Below, in pieces: positions 1,489 through 8,353 of a stretch of 8,766 nt of DNA. The notes under the pieces were generated by a model. It searched no databases. It worked only from the letters and a program-made list of their open reading frames with translations, and had not been told where the DNA came from. A program made the position numbers and the translations under genes. Position 1 is the stretch's first letter, and each line of letters starts with the position of its first letter. Where the stretch lies: contig LJUI01000104.1 in assembly GCA_001303705.1 (NCBI GenBank), positions 1-8,766 of the forward strand, read 5' to 3'. Source of the stretch: a candidate division TA06 bacterium SM23_40 (GTDB lineage Bacteria > LJUI01 > SM1-40).

Positions 1489-2463
1489 ATGCGATTCCCC
1501 CAAGGAACTCCACATCTTCAGAACGCCAAGCTGTCGTTCGTGAACTTCGACAACATACTCCACGACGCCAAAGTAGAGCGTGCCAGCAAGATATGCGGCC
1601 TCATCACCATCATCTATCCGGACGTCACCGAGCTCCTTTTTCTGAGGCAGGGCGAACCGGTGAATGCCGCGAGATTCACCAGAAACGATCGAGACATCGT
1701 ACCCATTCGCGAGGTCATTGAAAAAGCCAAGAAATCACCGGTCGGTACCGTCAGCATCCATGAGGTGCCCGATGAACTACTGGCTATGATCCTGGCGACA
1801 TTCAACACGAAGCCCATGTTCAAGGACATCGATGTGGCGGAGACCTCACCGGATACTTTTCTCGAGAAATTGACTTCTACGAAGTTCTCCGGGTTTGTCG
1901 AGCTACGACGCGGCGTCGAGCTTTCCTACGTCGGGTTCGAAGAGGGCAAACCAACCCACGGCTACTTCGCGGGCCGGGCCGGCAACGAGGTCTCGGATGA
2001 GATCATGCAGAAATACCTCGCGTTGCAGGATTCCGAGGGCGGTTCGATCAAGGTTAGCGGCTTCGAGGTGACGCCCGAGCGCATCGAGCAGGCCACGCCG
2101 GCGCTCATATCGCTATTCCTCAAGATGATCAATGCCATGATAGCAGAATACGGCACACTGGTCGGTCCGGCACTCGCCGAGAAAACTCTTCACAGCTCCC
2201 GTGAGGCTGCCGCCAAGCAGTTCTCCCTGCTCACCGATTTCGTCATCGACAAGGACTTGACAGTGAGCGGCGAACCTCTGGCCTCGCCGGACGACCTGTC
2301 ACGAGCCTTTGCGGCCTGGACAGACCTGCTCGTCGACGCCTTCCGCGCCGTCCTCGGGGATCGTGCCGAGGAGGTATTCGCCCGCTCGACCAAGGACTTC
2401 CGGTTCGCATTGAAGTCGACGACGTTCTCCGAGCATTCCAAGCTCTCAAAACTCCTCGAGTAG
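1489..2463 (+). CDS. Two-module DUF4388-like protein, function unknown
   Basis: A 324-residue soluble protein without signal peptide or membrane segment. It carries two similar modules. Residues about 34-63 contain GLITIIYPDVTELLFLRQGEP and residues about 132-162 contain GFVELRRGVELSYVGFEEGKP (each quoted only in part by pattern: G-hydrophobic strand, EL, aromatic or Leu strand, then G-[EK]-P). This strand-turn-strand pattern resembles DUF4388/PATAN-like domains, which are linked in the literature to signalling proteins; assignment is by eye. Residues about 200-324 are mostly helical and unrecognised. The start is constrained: an in-frame TGA at 1471 precedes it, the ATG at 1489 is the first candidate, and GAGGAGG (1472-1478) lies 10 bases upstream. 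It leads the run, ending six bases before rsmI. Confidence 0.7.
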   Translation: MRFPQGTPHLQNAKLSFVNFDNILHDAKVERASKICGLITIIYPDVTELLFLRQGEPVNAARFTRNDRDIVPIREVIEKAKKSPVGTVSIHEVPDELLAMILATFNTKPMFKDIDVAETSPDTFLEKLTSTKFSGFVELRRGVELSYVGFEEGKPTHGYFAGRAGNEVSDEIMQKYLALQDSEGGSIKVSGFEVTPERIEQATPALISLFLKMINAMIAEYGTLVGPALAEKTLHSSREAAAKQFSLLTDFVIDKDLTVSGEPLASPDDLSRAFAAWTDLLVDAFRAVLGDRAEEVFARSTKDFRFALKSTTFSEHSKLSKLLE

Positions 2464-2469
2464 ACCGTC

Positions 2470-3231
2470 GTGACCGATTCCGGACAGGAGAGGCTCCCGC
2501 CCGCTCTTTACATCGTCAGCACGCCGATCGGAAACTTGAAGGACGTCACATTCCGCGCGCTCGACGTCCTGCGCGCTGCCGATGTTGTCGCTGCAGAAGA
2601 TACACGGAGGACGAGGATCCTGCTCGCTCACTATGGGGCGAGCCGCAGGCTACTCAGCTATCGCGATCGCAATAAGGAGGTCAGAGCACCCAAACTGGTA
2701 CAGACCATCCTTGCCGGGTCGAGCGTAGCGCTCGTCTCCGACGGCGGCACACCGGGGATATCGGATCCAGGATACTACCTGATACGAATGGCCGTACAGA
2801 GGGGCATCGACATCGTGCCCATCCCCGGACCGACTGCCGCCATCGCCGCCCTCGTCGCTTCCGGGCTGCCCTGTGACCGGTTCGCATTCGAGGGATTTCT
2901 GCCTTCACGCCCAGGGAGGAAGCGAAGACGCCTGGAAGAACTCCGAACTGAGCCACGCACGCTGGTCATCTACGAAGCACCGCACCGCCTCAAGTCGACC
3001 CTCGTTCTAATGGCTCAGATCTTAGGTGACCGGAGCGCTGCCGTCGCCCGGGAGCTGACCAAGGTCTTCGAAGAGATCCGTCGCGGTTCTCTCAGCGAAC
3101 TGGCTGCTTACTATCAGACGGAACCAGCCAGAGGTGAAATCGTCATAATCCTGGAAGGTGCGCGCCAACAGGCTCTGTCGGATGTGAGGCAGCACAAGGG
3201 AGATGTCGCGAGTTGCTCTCACGAAGAGTAA
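2470..3231 (+). CDS. rsmI: 16S rRNA (cytidine(1402)-2'-O)-methyltransferase RsmI
   Basis: A 253-residue cytoplasmic SAM-dependent enzyme of the tetrapyrrole-methylase fold. It 2'-O-methylates C1402 in the ribosomal P site of 16S rRNA. Family motifs appear in order: STPIGNLKDVTFRAL (17-31), AAEDTRRT (41-48), SDGGTPGISDPG (90-101), PIPGPTAA (117-124), EGFLP (141-145), YEAPHR (168-173), ARELTKVFEE (193-202) and GEIVIILEG (222-230). The C-terminus stops soon after the last motif and is about 30 residues shorter than E. coli RsmI, so the small C-terminal extension is missing or reduced. The start is GTG six bases after the preceding stop, with no good Shine-Dalgarno, which suggests translational coupling. 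Its last 19 bases overlap the next gene. Confidence 0.95.
   Translation: MTDSGQERLPPALYIVSTPIGNLKDVTFRALDVLRAADVVAAEDTRRTRILLAHYGASRRLLSYRDRNKEVRAPKLVQTILAGSSVALVSDGGTPGISDPGYYLIRMAVQRGIDIVPIPGPTAAIAALVASGLPCDRFAFEGFLPSRPGRKRRRLEELRTEPRTLVIYEAPHRLKSTLVLMAQILGDRSAAVARELTKVFEEIRRGSLSELAAYYQTEPARGEIVIILEGARQQALSDVRQHKGDVASCSHEE
3196..3202 (+). promoter_or_regulatory. Ribosome binding site supporting a TTG start
   Basis: AAGGGAG sits inside the end of rsmI, 10 bases before TTG at 3213. It favours the TTG over the in-frame ATG at 3276. The ATG at 3203 directly beside it is in another frame that soon hits a stop. Confidence 0.5.
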
Positions 3232-3824
3232 GCACCATATGGAGAAGATCTCTTCGTCCCCTTACCAACTTCTCCATGCGCATGTCCCTGCCGCCCAATT
3301 TGCTCACGGCCTGCGGTCTGGTAGCTAGCATCTTCAGTGCTCTGGCTTTCAGGATAGGTGAGTTCCGAGTCGGGGCCATCGTTCTCCTCATCTCGGGCCT
3401 CTTCGACTCGCTCGACGGCGAAGTGGCTCGTCAGACGCATGGAGAAACAAAGTTTGGCGCGTTCCTCGACTCGACGGTAGACCGATATTCGGAATCAGTA
3501 GTTTTCCTCGGTATCGCATGGTACTATCTGCCCGGGCCGCAAGTGCTCATCATCATAGCTGCCCTCGTGGGGAGTTACATGGTGAGCTACGCGCGGGCCC
3601 GTTCTGAAGGAATCGGATACGAGTGCCGAACCGGCCTGATGGAGCGCCCAGAACGAATGCTGCTCCTCGTCTGTGGCGGTCTACTGGGAGAGCGGTTCTT
3701 CTTGGGATTCGTCATCGCCGTCGCAGTTCTCACGCATTTGACGGCTCTACACCGCATCTATTACGTGTGGCGCCAGACGAGAGACACCGCCGGTTCCGGA
3801 GAGCATGGTCAAGGCAGTACGTAG
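3213..3824 (+). CDS. CDP-alcohol phosphatidyltransferase, probable phosphatidylinositol-phosphate synthase
   Basis: A 203-residue polytopic membrane enzyme. The complete CDP-alcohol phosphotransferase signature is present: D65, D68-G69, A72-R73, G82, D86 and D90, spaced exactly as DxxDGxxAR(x8)GxxxDxxxD; these four Asp bind metal and catalyse. Hydrophobic segments lie at about 30-48, 53-66, 92-122 and 146-182. The later segment YARARSEG followed by GLMERPERM resembles the PIP/archaetidylinositol-phosphate synthase branch (inositol 1-phosphate acceptor). The next gene makes exactly that substrate, which supports this over PgsA (glycerol phosphate). Start: TTG at 3213 keeps the basic amphipathic N-terminus usual in the family; an ATG at 3276 would remove it. 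It overlaps rsmI by 19 bases. Acceptor specificity is inferred, not shown. Confidence 0.85.
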   Translation: MLSRRVSTIWRRSLRPLTNFSMRMSLPPNLLTACGLVASIFSALAFRIGEFRVGAIVLLISGLFDSLDGEVARQTHGETKFGAFLDSTVDRYSESVVFLGIAWYYLPGPQVLIIIAALVGSYMVSYARARSEGIGYECRTGLMERPERMLLLVCGGLLGERFFLGFVIAVAVLTHLTALHRIYYVWRQTRDTAGSGEHGQGST

Positions 3825-3895
3825 AGTCGACCTTACACCGACAGAACCGGCCACCGTCATAGAGACAAGACAATACCAGGAGAGGGGGGTCCAGG

Positions 3896-5065
3896 ATGCC
3901 CAAGGTGAGAGTCGGCATCATCGGCGTCGGAAATTGTGCCTCAGCCCTGATCCAGGGCGTGTACTACTACAGACGGGCGCCAGCTGACGAGAGCATCCCG
4001 GGGCTGATGCACGTCAATCTCGGTGGCTACCACGTCGGCGACATTGAGTTTTCCTGTGCCTTCGACATCGACAAGAACAAGGTCGGCAAGGACCTCGCCG
4101 AGGCGATCGTCACCACGCCCAACAACACCTACACCTTTGCCAATGTGCCGAAGATGGGCATCAAGGTGCTCCGGGGCATGACGCACGACGGGCTTGGCCA
4201 TTACCTGTCGCAGATCATCACCAAGGCACCTGGCTCCACCGTGGATATCGTGCAGGTACTCAAGGAATCGAAGACCGACGTGGTCATCAACTTCCTCCCC
4301 GTGGGTAGTGAGGAAGCAACGAAGTGGTACGTCGAACAGGTGCTCAAGGCCGGCTGTGGTTTCATTAACTGTATTCCGGTCTTCATCGCCAGGGAGCAGT
4401 ATTGGCGGCGTCGATTCAGCAAGGCCGGCCTCCCTGTCATCGGGGACGATATCAAGTCCCAGGTCGGCGCCACGATTCTCCACCGCGTCCTGACGAACCT
4501 GTTCATCAACAGGGGGGTGCGGCTCGAACGGACAAGCCAGCTCAATGTCGGGGGCAACACCGATTTCCTCAACATGCTCGAGCGATCGAGACTCGAATCG
4601 AAGAAGATATCGAAAACGAGTGCCGTGACCTCTCAGCTTCCCTATGATATCGGGGAGTCGAATATCCACATCGGCCCCTCGGACTACGTCGCCTGGCTCC
4701 TCGACCGCAAGTGGGCCTATATTCGCCTCGAGGGAAAATCGTTCGGCGATGTTCCGCTCAACATCGAGATGAAACTGGAGGTGTGGGACTCCCCTAACTC
4801 CGCCGGCGTGGTCATCGATGCCATCCGATGTTGCAAACTCGCGCTCGATCATGGGCTCAGCGGGGGACTCAAGGAGCCTTCGAGTTACTTCATGAAGTCG
4901 CCTCCAGTCCAGTATACCGACGAAGAGGCCCGTCTCAAGGTAGAGCAGTACATTTCCCGGTACCGAACGAAGCCATCCAGAAAGAAGACAACCCGGGCGG
5001 CGACGAAACCGAAGACTGCAAAGGGAAAGAGGCGAGCACGCGCCGGAGGCAAAAAGAGGCGATGA
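3896..5065 (+). CDS. ino1: Inositol-3-phosphate (L-myo-inositol 1-phosphate) synthase
   Basis: A 389-residue NAD-dependent cytoplasmic isomerase that converts glucose 6-phosphate to L-myo-inositol 1-phosphate. The N-terminal Rossmann motif is [15 protein letters not shown] (7-21). Other family blocks are [12 protein letters not shown] (134-145), [15 protein letters not shown] (183-197), [14 protein letters not shown] (215-228), [10 protein letters not shown] (235-244), HIGPSDYV (258-265), [11 protein letters not shown] (270-280) and [11 protein letters not shown] (295-305). From memory these match the actinobacterial/archaeal type very closely. The family core ends near residue 353. Residues 355-389 form an added tail with 18 Lys/Arg in 35 and no acidic residue, ending KKRR. 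The start has AGGAGAGG about 10 bases upstream. It lies 71 bases after the phosphatidyltransferase and overlaps tmk by four bases (ATGA). Confidence 0.95.
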
Positions 5066-5730
5066 GCGGTTCTCGACTGCCGAGAGGGGCACTGATCACA
5101 TTTGAGGGAGGCGATTGGAGCGGGAAGACGACCCAGGCGCGCAGACTGGTAGAGTGGCTGGAGAAGGCCGACATTCCCTGCGTCTTCTCGAGAGAGCCCG
5201 GGGGCACGGAGATCGGTGAAGAAATCCGCACCATTCTCCTCAATCCAGATCACGCGCCAATGTCCCCCAAGACAGAGCTCTTCCTGTACATGGCCAACAG
5301 GGCACAGCACACTTCTCAACTCATCATTCCTGCCCTCGATGCGGGCTCGATCGTCGTCTGCGAACGCTTCTCTGATGCCACGTTCGCATATCAGGGGGCA
5401 GGTAGAGGAATCGACAAAAACGTTATCGAACCGATTAACACCATCGCCACCTCCGGCATCGTCCCCGACCTGACGATTATCATCGACGTGCCGCCGGACG
5501 AGAGCACGGAGCGGGCAACGCACGCCGGGAGAGGCGAGGATCGAATCGAACGAGAAGGTCTCACATTTCAGAAGAAGGTGCGGCAGGAGTATCTCCGGAT
5601 TGCACAACAAGATCCGGAACGAGTCAAAATCGTCGATGGTGCAAAAGAGATCGATCATATAGCGCAAGAGATCATCGGCATAGTTGAGCAATTCCTTCGC
5701 GACCGGGGGTTCCTACCGGATACAGATTAA
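5062..5730 (+). CDS. tmk: Thymidylate kinase (dTMP kinase)
   Basis: A 222-residue cytoplasmic kinase that phosphorylates dTMP to dTDP with ATP for dTTP synthesis. The P-loop is GGDWSGKT (16-23), with Trp19 where the family usually has Gly. [11 protein letters not shown] (42-52) is the dTMP-site block; NRAQH (79-83) replaces the common [17 protein letters not shown] (101-112) is the DR[YF] motif with Glu for the first Asp. The lid segment [11 protein letters not shown] (156-166) carries Arg residues. Length is normal. The ATG at 5062 overlaps the ino1 stop (ATGA), and GGAGG (5045-5049) lies 12 bases upstream, inside the basic-tail coding region. An in-frame earlier ATG at 4828 is an unrelated extension through ino1 and was not used. 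Confidence 0.95.
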
Positions 5731-5863: not shown

Positions 5864-7444
5864 ATGAGGGGTCGTACACTACCGGTGGTGGGGATACTTG
5901 CCCTTGTTGCCACCTTGCTCCTCGGCTGGTCGCTGATCACGCCGGGACACGGAGCGAGAGATGAGATCTATTACGATCTCACCCTCTTCAGCGAAGTGCT
6001 TTCGAACATCAAGACCAAACACGTCGAGCAGATCGACTCGCGGCAACTGATCAGAGCCGCCATCGCCGGCATGCTCGACGAACTGGATCCCCACACCCAA
6101 TTCCTCGATCCGGAGGAGTACAGAGAACTCCAGATCGGGACTGAGGGCAGCTTCGGCGGGCTCGGAATAACGATCGGCATCAGGAATGATGTTCTTACGG
6201 TCATTTCTCCCATCGAGGGGACACCTGCCTATTCCATGGGCATTCAGCCGGGGGATCAGATCATCGAGATCGAAGGAGTCTCCACAGATGGCCTGGCACT
6301 GCGAGATGCGGTGCGCCAGCTACGCGGCCCGGCCGGGACCAGGGTTACGATCACCATAAGGCGTGAGGGTGTGGACACGCCGTTCGACATCACGATCACC
6401 CGGGCGACGATCAACATCGAGAGCGTGCCGTACCATGCCATGCTCACCGCTGATATCGGGTACGCACGTCTCGCAACATTTTCTAGGCAATCGAGCAGAG
6501 AACTCGAAAACGCCATATCGGAACTCAAAGCGCAGGGAGCCCGGGGATTGGTACTCGATCTCCGGAACAACTCCGGCGGGATGCTGCGGGGAGCAGTCGA
6601 TATCGCGGATACCTTCCTCGACAAAGATGAACTTATCGTCTCTACCAAGGGTCGCACAAGAGAGTCGAATCAGAAGTTCATGGCCAGATCGGATAGCGAA
6701 TATGGTGATTTGCTCCTCGCCGTAGTTGTCAACGGCGGCAGCGCCAGCGCATCTGAGATCGTGGCCGGCGCGATCCAGGATTGGGACAGAGGCCTAGTTG
6801 TGGGGACACGCACCTTCGGCAAGGGATCAGTCCAGTCCGTGATCCCGCTCAGTCACGAGAGTGCGCTCAAGCTCACGACAGCCAAATACCATACGCCATC
6901 GGGAAGGTGCATTGACGACGCCGAACGTCTATCAGAAGAGGAAGACGAGGGCGCAGCGCAAGCCGAGTCCATTGCCGTCGATACGACCGAGACCTTCCAT
7001 ACTGTAGGTGGGTTGGAGCGTGTGGTCTACGGCGGAGGCGGAATCACACCTGATGTCATCGTTCGGTTCCCCGATCTGCCAATGATCGTGCAGGACTTCC
7101 TGCGCCACTCGGCTTTCTTCGAGTTTGCCGTCAAATATACGGCTGCCCATAGGGACATCGATCGTGGATTCAGAGTAGACCGAGGTATGGTGAGCGAGTT
7201 TAAAGCATTCCTCGCTGAGAAAGAATATACCTTCGAAGAATCCAAGTTCGCTGAGCATCTCGACCTCATCAAGCAGGAGATCGAACGCAACATCGCGAAT
7301 GACCTCTGGGGGACGGAGGGCTGGTATGACGTCGCCCTCAAGGATGACGTCCAGGTCCAGAAGGCCATCGAACTCCTTTCGAAGGTAGGCGATACCGGAG
7401 CGCTGCTCGCACTCGCTCAGAGCCAAATAGGAAGCGATGACTGA
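5864..7444 (+). CDS. S41 family C-terminal processing peptidase (CtpA/Prc type)
   Basis: A 526-residue serine protease acting outside the cytoplasmic membrane, degrading or trimming proteins from their C-termini. Residues 6-27 are a hydrophobic signal or anchor segment after a basic N-terminus. The PDZ domain spans about 93-182 (GLGITIG near 99-105; GIQPGDQIIEIEG at 126-138). The protease core has LDLRNNSGG (231-239), the nucleophile block NGGSASASEIVAG (290-302) and TFGKGSVQ (317-324). S295 and K320 are 25 residues apart and Q324 follows by four, the spacing of the known Ser-Lys-Gln triad, so it should be active. Residues 351-375 are acidic and variable. Residues 405-526 form the usual helical C-terminal region. 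AGGAAGGGAGAAG lies before the ATG. The next gene starts 30 bases downstream. Substrate unknown. Confidence 0.93.
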   Translation: MRGRTLPVVGILALVATLLLGWSLITPGHGARDEIYYDLTLFSEVLSNIKTKHVEQIDSRQLIRAAIAGMLDELDPHTQFLDPEEYRELQIGTEGSFGGLGITIGIRNDVLTVISPIEGTPAYSMGIQPGDQIIEIEGVSTDGLALRDAVRQLRGPAGTRVTITIRREGVDTPFDITITRATINIESVPYHAMLTADIGYARLATFSRQSSRELENAISELKAQGARGLVLDLRNNSGGMLRGAVDIADTFLDKDELIVSTKGRTRESNQKFMARSDSEYGDLLLAVVVNGGSASASEIVAGAIQDWDRGLVVGTRTFGKGSVQSVIPLSHESALKLTTAKYHTPSGRCIDDAERLSEEEDEGAAQAESIAVDTTETFHTVGGLERVVYGGGGITPDVIVRFPDLPMIVQDFLRHSAFFEFAVKYTAAHRDIDRGFRVDRGMVSEFKAFLAEKEYTFEESKFAEHLDLIKQEIERNIANDLWGTEGWYDVALKDDVQVQKAIELLSKVGDTGALLALAQSQIGSDD

Positions 7445-7474: not shown

Positions 7475-8353
7475 GTGTCACCCGAGAAAGTCACAATACC
7501 TGAACTGGCGAAGATGAAGAAACGGGGTGAGAAGATCACCCTGCTGACCGCCTACGACTATCCCATGGCCCGCCTCGTCGACAGGGCAGGGATCGACATG
7601 ATCCTCGTGGGGGACAGCCTCGCCATGACAGTCCTCGGACATGAATCGACCCTCCCGGTTACCATGGACGAAATGATCAGCCATGCCAGGGCGGTGACAA
7701 GGGCCGTGGAGCGGACATTCGTCGTGGGAGACATGCCGTATCTCTCTTACCAGGTTTCGGACGAAGAAGCCATCCGGAACGCAGGCCGGTTCATGCAGGA
7801 GGCCCTCACCGACGCAGTCAAGGTTGAAGGAGGGGAACAGATGCTCGATCGGATACGGGCCATCATCCGGGCGGGCATACCGGTAATGGGCCATCTCGGC
7901 CTCACCCCGCAATCCCTCAGCCTGCTCGGCGGGTACCGTGTGCAGGGGAAGACCGCCCGCGCGGCCAAGCGGCTCCTGGACGAGGCCAAGATGCTCGAAG
8001 ATGCGGGCGTCTTCTGCATCGTCCTCGAGTGTGTCCCGAGTGAGGTTGGCAAACTCGTAACTGACTCCGTGACGATCCCGACACTCGGCGTGGGGGCCGG
8101 ACCGCACTGCGACGGACAGATACTCGTTATGCACGATATGCTGGGCCTGTTCGAGTTCTTCGCCCCGAAATTCGCCAAGCGCTATGTCGATCTGGCCGAG
8201 ACGGTCACCGAGGCATTTCAGGAATTCAGACGAGATGTCAAAGAAGACAGATTCCCCGGACCAGAGCACTGCTACACGATGAAACAGGAGGAGCGTGAGA
8301 GACTATCCGCCGATCTGCCCCCTAAGACTGCACGAGTCAAAACTGATCCTTGA
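7475..8353 (+). CDS. panB: 3-methyl-2-oxobutanoate hydroxymethyltransferase (ketopantoate hydroxymethyltransferase)
   Basis: A 292-residue cytoplasmic enzyme. It transfers a hydroxymethyl group from 5,10-methylenetetrahydrofolate to 3-methyl-2-oxobutanoate, giving ketopantoate for pantothenate and coenzyme A. The active-site set is intact: D47 in VGDSL, D86 in VVGDMP, K116 and E118 in DAVKVEGG, and E185 in VLECVP, corresponding to E. coli D45, D84, K112, E114 and E181. Also seen are TAYDYP (25-30), GHLGLTPQS (139-147) and GVGAGPHCDGQ (205-215). It has about 25 extra C-terminal residues, charged and probably disordered, compared with E. coli. The start is GTG, with AGAGGAGGAG (7457-7466) eight bases upstream. 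It follows the protease gene by 30 bases and is probably co-transcribed; panC and panD are not in view. Confidence 0.96.
   Translation: MSPEKVTIPELAKMKKRGEKITLLTAYDYPMARLVDRAGIDMILVGDSLAMTVLGHESTLPVTMDEMISHARAVTRAVERTFVVGDMPYLSYQVSDEEAIRNAGRFMQEALTDAVKVEGGEQMLDRIRAIIRAGIPVMGHLGLTPQSLSLLGGYRVQGKTARAAKRLLDEAKMLEDAGVFCIVLECVPSEVGKLVTDSVTIPTLGVGAGPHCDGQILVMHDMLGLFEFFAPKFAKRYVDLAETVTEAFQEFRRDVKEDRFPGPEHCYTMKQEERERLSADLPPKTARVKTDP

Follow-up and report, generated by a model that had tools for sequence, protein, structure and literature searches.

We describe a pair of adjacent genes on contig LJUI01000104.1 of the candidate division TA06 bacterium SM23_40, which was analysed over its whole length (C57, 8766 b; hereafter the window) and belongs to an assembly of 2.88 Mb that is 89.8% complete. 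The first gene, PIPS, encodes a CDP-alcohol phosphotransferase of the phosphatidylinositol-phosphate (PIP) synthase type, and the second, MIPS, encodes an inositol-3-phosphate (1L-myo-inositol-1-phosphate) synthase. The features of the pair are as follows, where MtPIPS is the PIP synthase of Mycobacterium tuberculosis.

3213..3824, plus strand: PIPS, phosphatidylinositol-phosphate synthase-type CDP-alcohol phosphotransferase, 203 aa (family models, trees, AlphaFold model)
3405..3482, plus strand: CDP-alcohol phosphotransferase signature DxxDGxxARx8GxxxDxxxD, residues 65-90 (motif search)
3585..3602, plus strand: SYARAR (S125-R130), aligned with S132, K135 (R128 here) and R137 of the MtPIPS inositol-phosphate pocket
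3642..3656, plus strand: ERPER (E144-R148), in which P146 corresponds to MtPIPS P153 (lipid groove) and R148 to R155, which binds the phosphate of inositol phosphate
3753..3755, plus strand: R181, corresponding to MtPIPS R195, the second phosphate-binding arginine
3896..5065, plus strand: MIPS, 389 aa (PF01658, TIGR03450 and 1gr0 alignment)
3923..3943, plus strand: GVGNCAS, the dinucleotide-binding (NAD) motif of MIPS (alignment)

PIPS begins with a TTG codon, with GGGAG about 9 nt upstream. Its signature is intact (D65-x2-D68-G69-x2-A72-R73-x8-G82-x3-D86-x3-D90), is the sole match in the six frames of the window and appeared in none of 2000 shuffles of the protein. With 66 bits to Pfam PF01066 (cut-off 22), this signature and a six-helix fold in the AlphaFold model, the protein belongs to class I of the CDP-alcohol phosphotransferases. 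MIPS is full length, matching positions 1-355 of the 355 in TIGR03450 (E 1e-158), and scores 462 bits against M. tuberculosis Ino1 (PDB 1gr0) vs 203 against the cyclitol-phosphate synthase 6k96. With 123 bits to PF01658 (cut-off 27) and a conserved NAD motif it is a member of the inositol-3-phosphate synthase family, and it is the sole PF01658 protein in the host genome. It resembles the mycobacterial enzyme in being 58% identical to it over 351 aa, but differs in reaching 528 bits where the TIGR03450 cut-off is 638, and in a basic C-terminal tail, rich in K and R, that extends about 35 residues past the end of Ino1 (window 4960-5062). The initial annotation had described an intact phosphotransferase signature followed by a complete inositol-phosphate synthase, and it was right on both, with exact coordinates.

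Among the NCBIfam models, PIPS scores 171 bits to archaetidylinositol-phosphate synthase (NF040950), 139 to PIP synthase (NF045883) and 126 to the BT_1523 type (NF052561), and it fails the models for PgsA (TIGR00560, 26 bits vs a cut-off of 109) and pssA (TIGR00473, 33 vs 107). The best solved relatives are the PIP synthases of M. tuberculosis, Mycobacterium kansasii and Renibacterium. An AlphaFold model built from a 22-sequence alignment has a pLDDT of 93; Foldseek ranks 1-14 for it are all PIP synthases, and VIA-align gives Z scores of about 20-22 to PIP synthases, AF2299 and DIPPS vs 12.7 to PgsA and 12.4 to phosphatidylserine synthase (PSS). The host genome, which was searched family by family with profiles and whose completeness of about 90% makes any absence provisional, also encodes a separate, true PgsA (TIGR00560, 115 bits vs a cut-off of 109); as an outgroup, this protein and Staphylococcus aureus PgsA split from the PIPS group at 100/99. 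Family scores, trees and structural Z scores together rule out a PgsA or PSS identity for the 203-aa protein, which the initial annotation had named as a finding that would overturn its prediction. Instead, they point to an enzyme of the inositol-phosphate branch that is closest to PIP synthase, and we class it in the wider inositol-phosphate group, not as an NF045883 equivalog. The trees do not settle the deep branching within the PIPS family, and so give no verdict on gene transfer between this lineage and Actinobacteria in either direction. A third CDP-alcohol phosphotransferase of the host (L003:200-1896, G000 C116), below the Pfam cut-off, lies beside a CTP_transf_1 protein and may form with it a head-group or cytidylyltransferase pair.

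The pocket residues can be compared with those of MtPIPS, in which R155, R195, S132, K135 and P153 have been tested by mutation, and in which R155, R195, S132, P153 and the catalytic D93 matter (PMC4634129). In our alignment these five are all kept in the window protein, and K135 is replaced by R128; the residues R148, R181, S125 and P146 that mark a PIP or archaetidylinositol-phosphate synthase are therefore present. The protein is about 35% identical to the actinobacterial PIP synthases (MtPIPS/PgsA1, MkPIPS and RsPIPS) and shares with them the six-helix CDP-alcohol phosphotransferase fold, the signature, a P(N/D)xxT motif, ERPER and both phosphate-binding arginines. It is unlike them in having Arg for K135, in lying in an rsmI/tmk operon of a non-actinobacterial host, and in falling below the PIPSynth cut-off. 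Actinobacterial PIP synthase genes have PatA and PimA in their neighbourhood.

The pair is flanked by the following genes, which the initial annotation had named correctly, as Pfam and NCBIfam matches confirm.

2470..3231, plus strand: rsmI, 16S rRNA (cytidine-1402-2'-O)-methyltransferase, the conserved upstream neighbour
5062..5730, plus strand: tmk, dTMP kinase, the conserved downstream neighbour
5864..7444, plus strand: S41 C-terminal processing peptidase (ctpA-type), conserved further downstream
7475-8353: panB

The start of PIPS overlaps the end of rsmI by 19 nt (rsmI stop at 3229-3231) and the start of tmk overlaps the MIPS stop by 4 nt (ATGA, 5062-5065). Because of these overlaps, and because no terminator-like or promoter-like site was found on the plus strand from rsmI to tmk, the pair looks like part of a single transcription unit. 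Upstream of rsmI, a 324-aa open reading frame (ORF; window 1489-2463) matches nothing in Pfam or NCBIfam; S5B7 (L090) has a homologue with 43% identity in the same position before rsmI.

The host is not actinobacterial; an actinobacterial contig, on which the pairing would be ordinary, was the second finding that the initial annotation had said would overturn its prediction. Its RpoB is 62% identical to that of TA06 and 52-62% identical to those of Eisenbacteria, Krumholzibacteriota and WOR-3. In the RpoB tree, it falls with or beside TA06, WOR-3, S5B7 and G030 in a group of seven rows separated from the rest with support 99; a matching group is recovered at 100/99 in the other version of the tree (three rows are antisense ORFs). 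We therefore place the host beside candidate divisions TA06 and WOR-3.

The same block of genes is found well beyond this contig. A scan of named genomes with the PIPS alignment returned upwards of 560 relatives, the best 80 of which belong to WOR-3, TA06, Nitrospirota, Acidobacteriota, Chloroflexota, Eisenbacteria, Krumholzibacteriota, delta-proteobacterial groups, Aquificota and others. The order rsmI-PIPS-MIPS-tmk-ctp is common to a TA06 genome (L040; 51% identical to the window in PIPS and 71% in MIPS), two WOR-3 genomes (L039 and L092), S5B7 (L090) and an Eisenbacteria genome (L071). A second Eisenbacteria contig (L075) shares rsmI to tmk and then ends, and G030 (L012) shares rsmI-PIPS-MIPS-tmk. 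In Krumholzibacteriota L083 and Eisenbacteria L109, rsmI-PIPS is retained and MIPS lies elsewhere in the genome instead of at the locus, and in Nitrospirota the pair is found in the opposite order, MIPS-PIPS. In the MIPS tree the window protein groups with those of TA06, both WOR-3 genomes, G030 and S5B7 (support 96). Since RpoB gives a similar group, inheritance of the pair appears to have been vertical, and an old operon passed down in TA06/WOR-3-type bacteria would be the simplest reading of the sequences. Individual loci carry further genes: a 243-aa ORF that separates MIPS from tmk in WOR-3 (L039:7768-8496) and has neither a Pfam nor an NCBIfam match, a PfkB-family kinase between PIPS and MIPS in G009 (L017:2043-2963) that is a candidate myo-inositol kinase for salvage, and an acyltransferase and a lipid-kinase-like gene adjoining PIPS in the acidobacterial L045.

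The two genes also occur together across genomes. In a comparison set of 40 genomes, each from a different family and none from the host's own phylum, with at least 70 bits required for a PIPS-positive call, MIPS is present in 10 of 13 PIPS-positive genomes vs 3 of 27 PIPS-negative ones (Fisher p = 7e-5), and in two of the three MIPS-only exceptions MIPS has DIPPS-like genes beside it. When 50 named PIPS-positive genomes with no MIPS at the locus were searched with PF01658, 38 proved to have MIPS elsewhere. A longer type of MIPS (open frame mostly about 440-510 aa; about 110-117 bits to PF01658) occurs in the PIPS-positive genomes of Acidobacteriota and Krumholzibacteriota and in certain others, and judging by these sequences a single PIPS family seems to have partners of two MIPS types.

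Given families, key residues, operon and co-occurrence, all of which sequence and comparison establish for these two genes, we consider it very likely that PIPS and MIPS catalyse consecutive steps of an inositol phospholipid pathway of the mycobacterial/archaeal type, most likely with CDP-diacylglycerol as the donor. MIPS would convert glucose-6-phosphate to 1L-myo-inositol-1-phosphate, using NAD. PIPS, a six-helix membrane enzyme, would bind the CDP-activated donor lipid, which is most likely CDP-diacylglycerol, at its D-x2-DG-x2-AR...G-x3-D-x3-D metal site, while R148 and R181 would hold the phosphate of inositol phosphate. With D90 acting as the base, the products would be phosphatidylinositol-phosphate and CMP, and a phosphatase would then remove the terminal phosphate to give phosphatidylinositol. 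The catalysis, the donor and the final lipid are what we infer from the comparison, and the inositol phospholipids that the initial annotation expected from the adjacent pair are thus a predicted product, supported by family, tree, structure, residue and operon evidence.

Several observations weigh against this assignment. Both proteins lie below the NCBIfam equivalog cut-offs, PIPS with 171 of 180 bits for NF040950 and 139 of 170 for NF045883, and MIPS with 528 of 638. As possible PIP phosphatases the host has a PgpA (C51) and two IMPase homologues, and in our profile search none is linked to the pair; BT_1525, which acts as PIP phosphatase in Bacteroides, belongs to the PgpA family (PMC9246714), and several relatives that share the operon lack PgpA. 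Twelve of the 50 genomes with no MIPS at the locus have no PF01658 protein anywhere. They are mostly Chloroflexota and include the complete Caldilineaceae chromosome L073, along with Caldilineaceae L050, L051 and L084. These 12 genomes may rely on inositol salvage or on another acceptor. The pocket residues of their PIPS are the same, and an alignment search for residue patterns separating MIPS-linked from MIPS-unlinked PIPS found no difference; the pocket residues alone are therefore no proof of inositol-phosphate use. Finally, the cluster of the inositol-phosphate group also takes in archaeal glycerol-3-phosphate transferases (PMC9385802).

The alternative that survives best, although we regard it as improbable, concerns the lipid backbone: the bacterium would have a mixed membrane, PIPS would draw on CDP-archaeol or a mixed isoprenoid ether lipid as donor, and archaetidylinositol(-phosphate) would be formed. 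The host does encode a GGGP synthase (TIGR01769, 213 bits, cut-off 161.6). It also has a UbiA protein for which NCBIfam gives as best matches, all below cut-off, a generic prenyltransferase model (230/269) and DGGGP synthases (184/296). The same pattern has been reported in Ca. Cloacimonetes (PMC7852524). The genes for the GGGP synthase and the DGGGP-synthase-like UbiA protein are found at L170:9127-9879 (G000 C164) and L191:442-1281 (G000 C90). Against this, a profile search of the assembly (about 90% complete) did not find CarS, and no convincing glycerol-1-phosphate dehydrogenase was detected in the host, where the match in C45 is a generic Fe-alcohol dehydrogenase with 27 of 413 bits. The top rank of the archaeal model NF040950 for PIPS might also seem to favour archaeol, but that model outscores the PIP synthase model in members from TA06, Nitrospira, Acidobacteria, Chloroflexota and Aquificota too; as a control, its win for six other bacterial members rules it out as evidence for an archaeol backbone. 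PlsY, PgsA and a CTP_transf_1 protein, which the host also has, speak against an archaeol-type donor; PlsY and the CTP_transf_1 protein support a donor of the diacylglycerol type, and the backbone is probably diacylglycerol.

A somewhat less likely alternative still is that PIPS uses another acceptor, such as glycerol-3-phosphate, and that the inositol phosphate made by MIPS serves a different, soluble purpose. This would agree with the PIPS-like genes in genomes without any MIPS and with the archaeal glycerol-3-phosphate transferases of the same cluster (PMC9385802). On the other side stand the adjacency and co-occurrence of PIPS with MIPS, the host's separate true PgsA, the retention of both phosphate-binding arginines, and the link between PIPS and PimA-like genes in Chloroflexota, MIPS-less genomes included. 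That the pair serves di-myo-inositol-phosphate (compatible solute) synthesis or a CDP-inositol route to inositol lipids can be dismissed as highly improbable: DIPP synthase belongs to the same superfamily (PIPS scores 71 bits to NF041135, cut-off 580) and genomes G005 and G034 have MIPS paired with DIPPS-like genes, but the 203-aa window protein has no IPCT domain, the window holds no IPCT gene, PIPS scores far higher on the PIP and archaetidylinositol-phosphate synthase models, and its best Foldseek matches are PIP synthases, which together rule these routes out.

The Chloroflexota loci extend the inositol lipid reading. A GT4 glycosyltransferase gene lies directly upstream of PIPS in 12 of them (L065, gene 3962-5077, and L047, L054, L063, L069, L070, L077, L082, L087, L089, L102 and L111), with MIPS in the same cluster in L065, L089 and L111. 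The L065 protein is the one that was scored; PimA is its nearest match (221 bits, against 81 for the next protein other than PimA), and it shares 41-55% identity with the remaining 11. From these sequences, phosphatidylinositol mannosides are possible in Chloroflexota. Phosphatidylinositol itself has been reported among the major lipids of Dictyobacter (Chloroflexota; PMC12453558) and among the minor lipids of Occallatibacter (Acidobacteriota; PMC12935467), as well as in Bacteroidetes (PMC9246714).

Among known systems, archaetidylinositol-phosphate synthase is nearest to PIPS by model score, but the window protein is below its cut-off and the full archaeal lipid pathway was not found in the host. 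The Bacteroides thetaiotaomicron genes BT_1523, BT_1525 and BT_1526 likewise combine clustered MIPS and PIPS with a PIP intermediate (PMC9246714); the window locus differs in having neither a PgpA-family phosphatase nor an inositol-sphingolipid synthase, and the 126 bits of PIPS to NF052561 compare with a cut-off of 350. The mechanism is already known, and the interest of the pair comes from the lineage that carries it, the conservation of its operon and how widely its family occurs. Inositol phospholipids are commonly associated with eukaryotes, archaea and actinobacteria. A 2022 paper described inositol phospholipids as comparatively rare in bacteria, found mainly in Actinobacteria, Spirochaetes and some Bacteroidetes (PMC9246714), and our literature search returned no paper naming both 'candidate division WOR-3' and 'phosphatidylinositol'. 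With a widespread PIPS family and phosphatidylinositol reported in Bacteroidetes, Chloroflexota and Acidobacteriota, the initial annotation overstated matters in calling such lipids uncommon elsewhere in bacteria; judging by gene content, many overlooked bacteria probably make them. If they do, phosphatidylinositol in soils, sediments and deep water would be no marker of actinobacteria or eukaryotes, and the origin of inositol lipids in archaea, bacteria and eukaryotes would become testable with a broad bacterial set.

The host also carries a homologue of decaprenyl-phosphate phosphoribosyltransferase, a mycobacterial arabinan precursor enzyme (L189:651-1541, G000 C6; 285 bits, above the cut-off of 234), and a protein similar to it, by eye alone, is encoded in G030 (L186:1393-2283).

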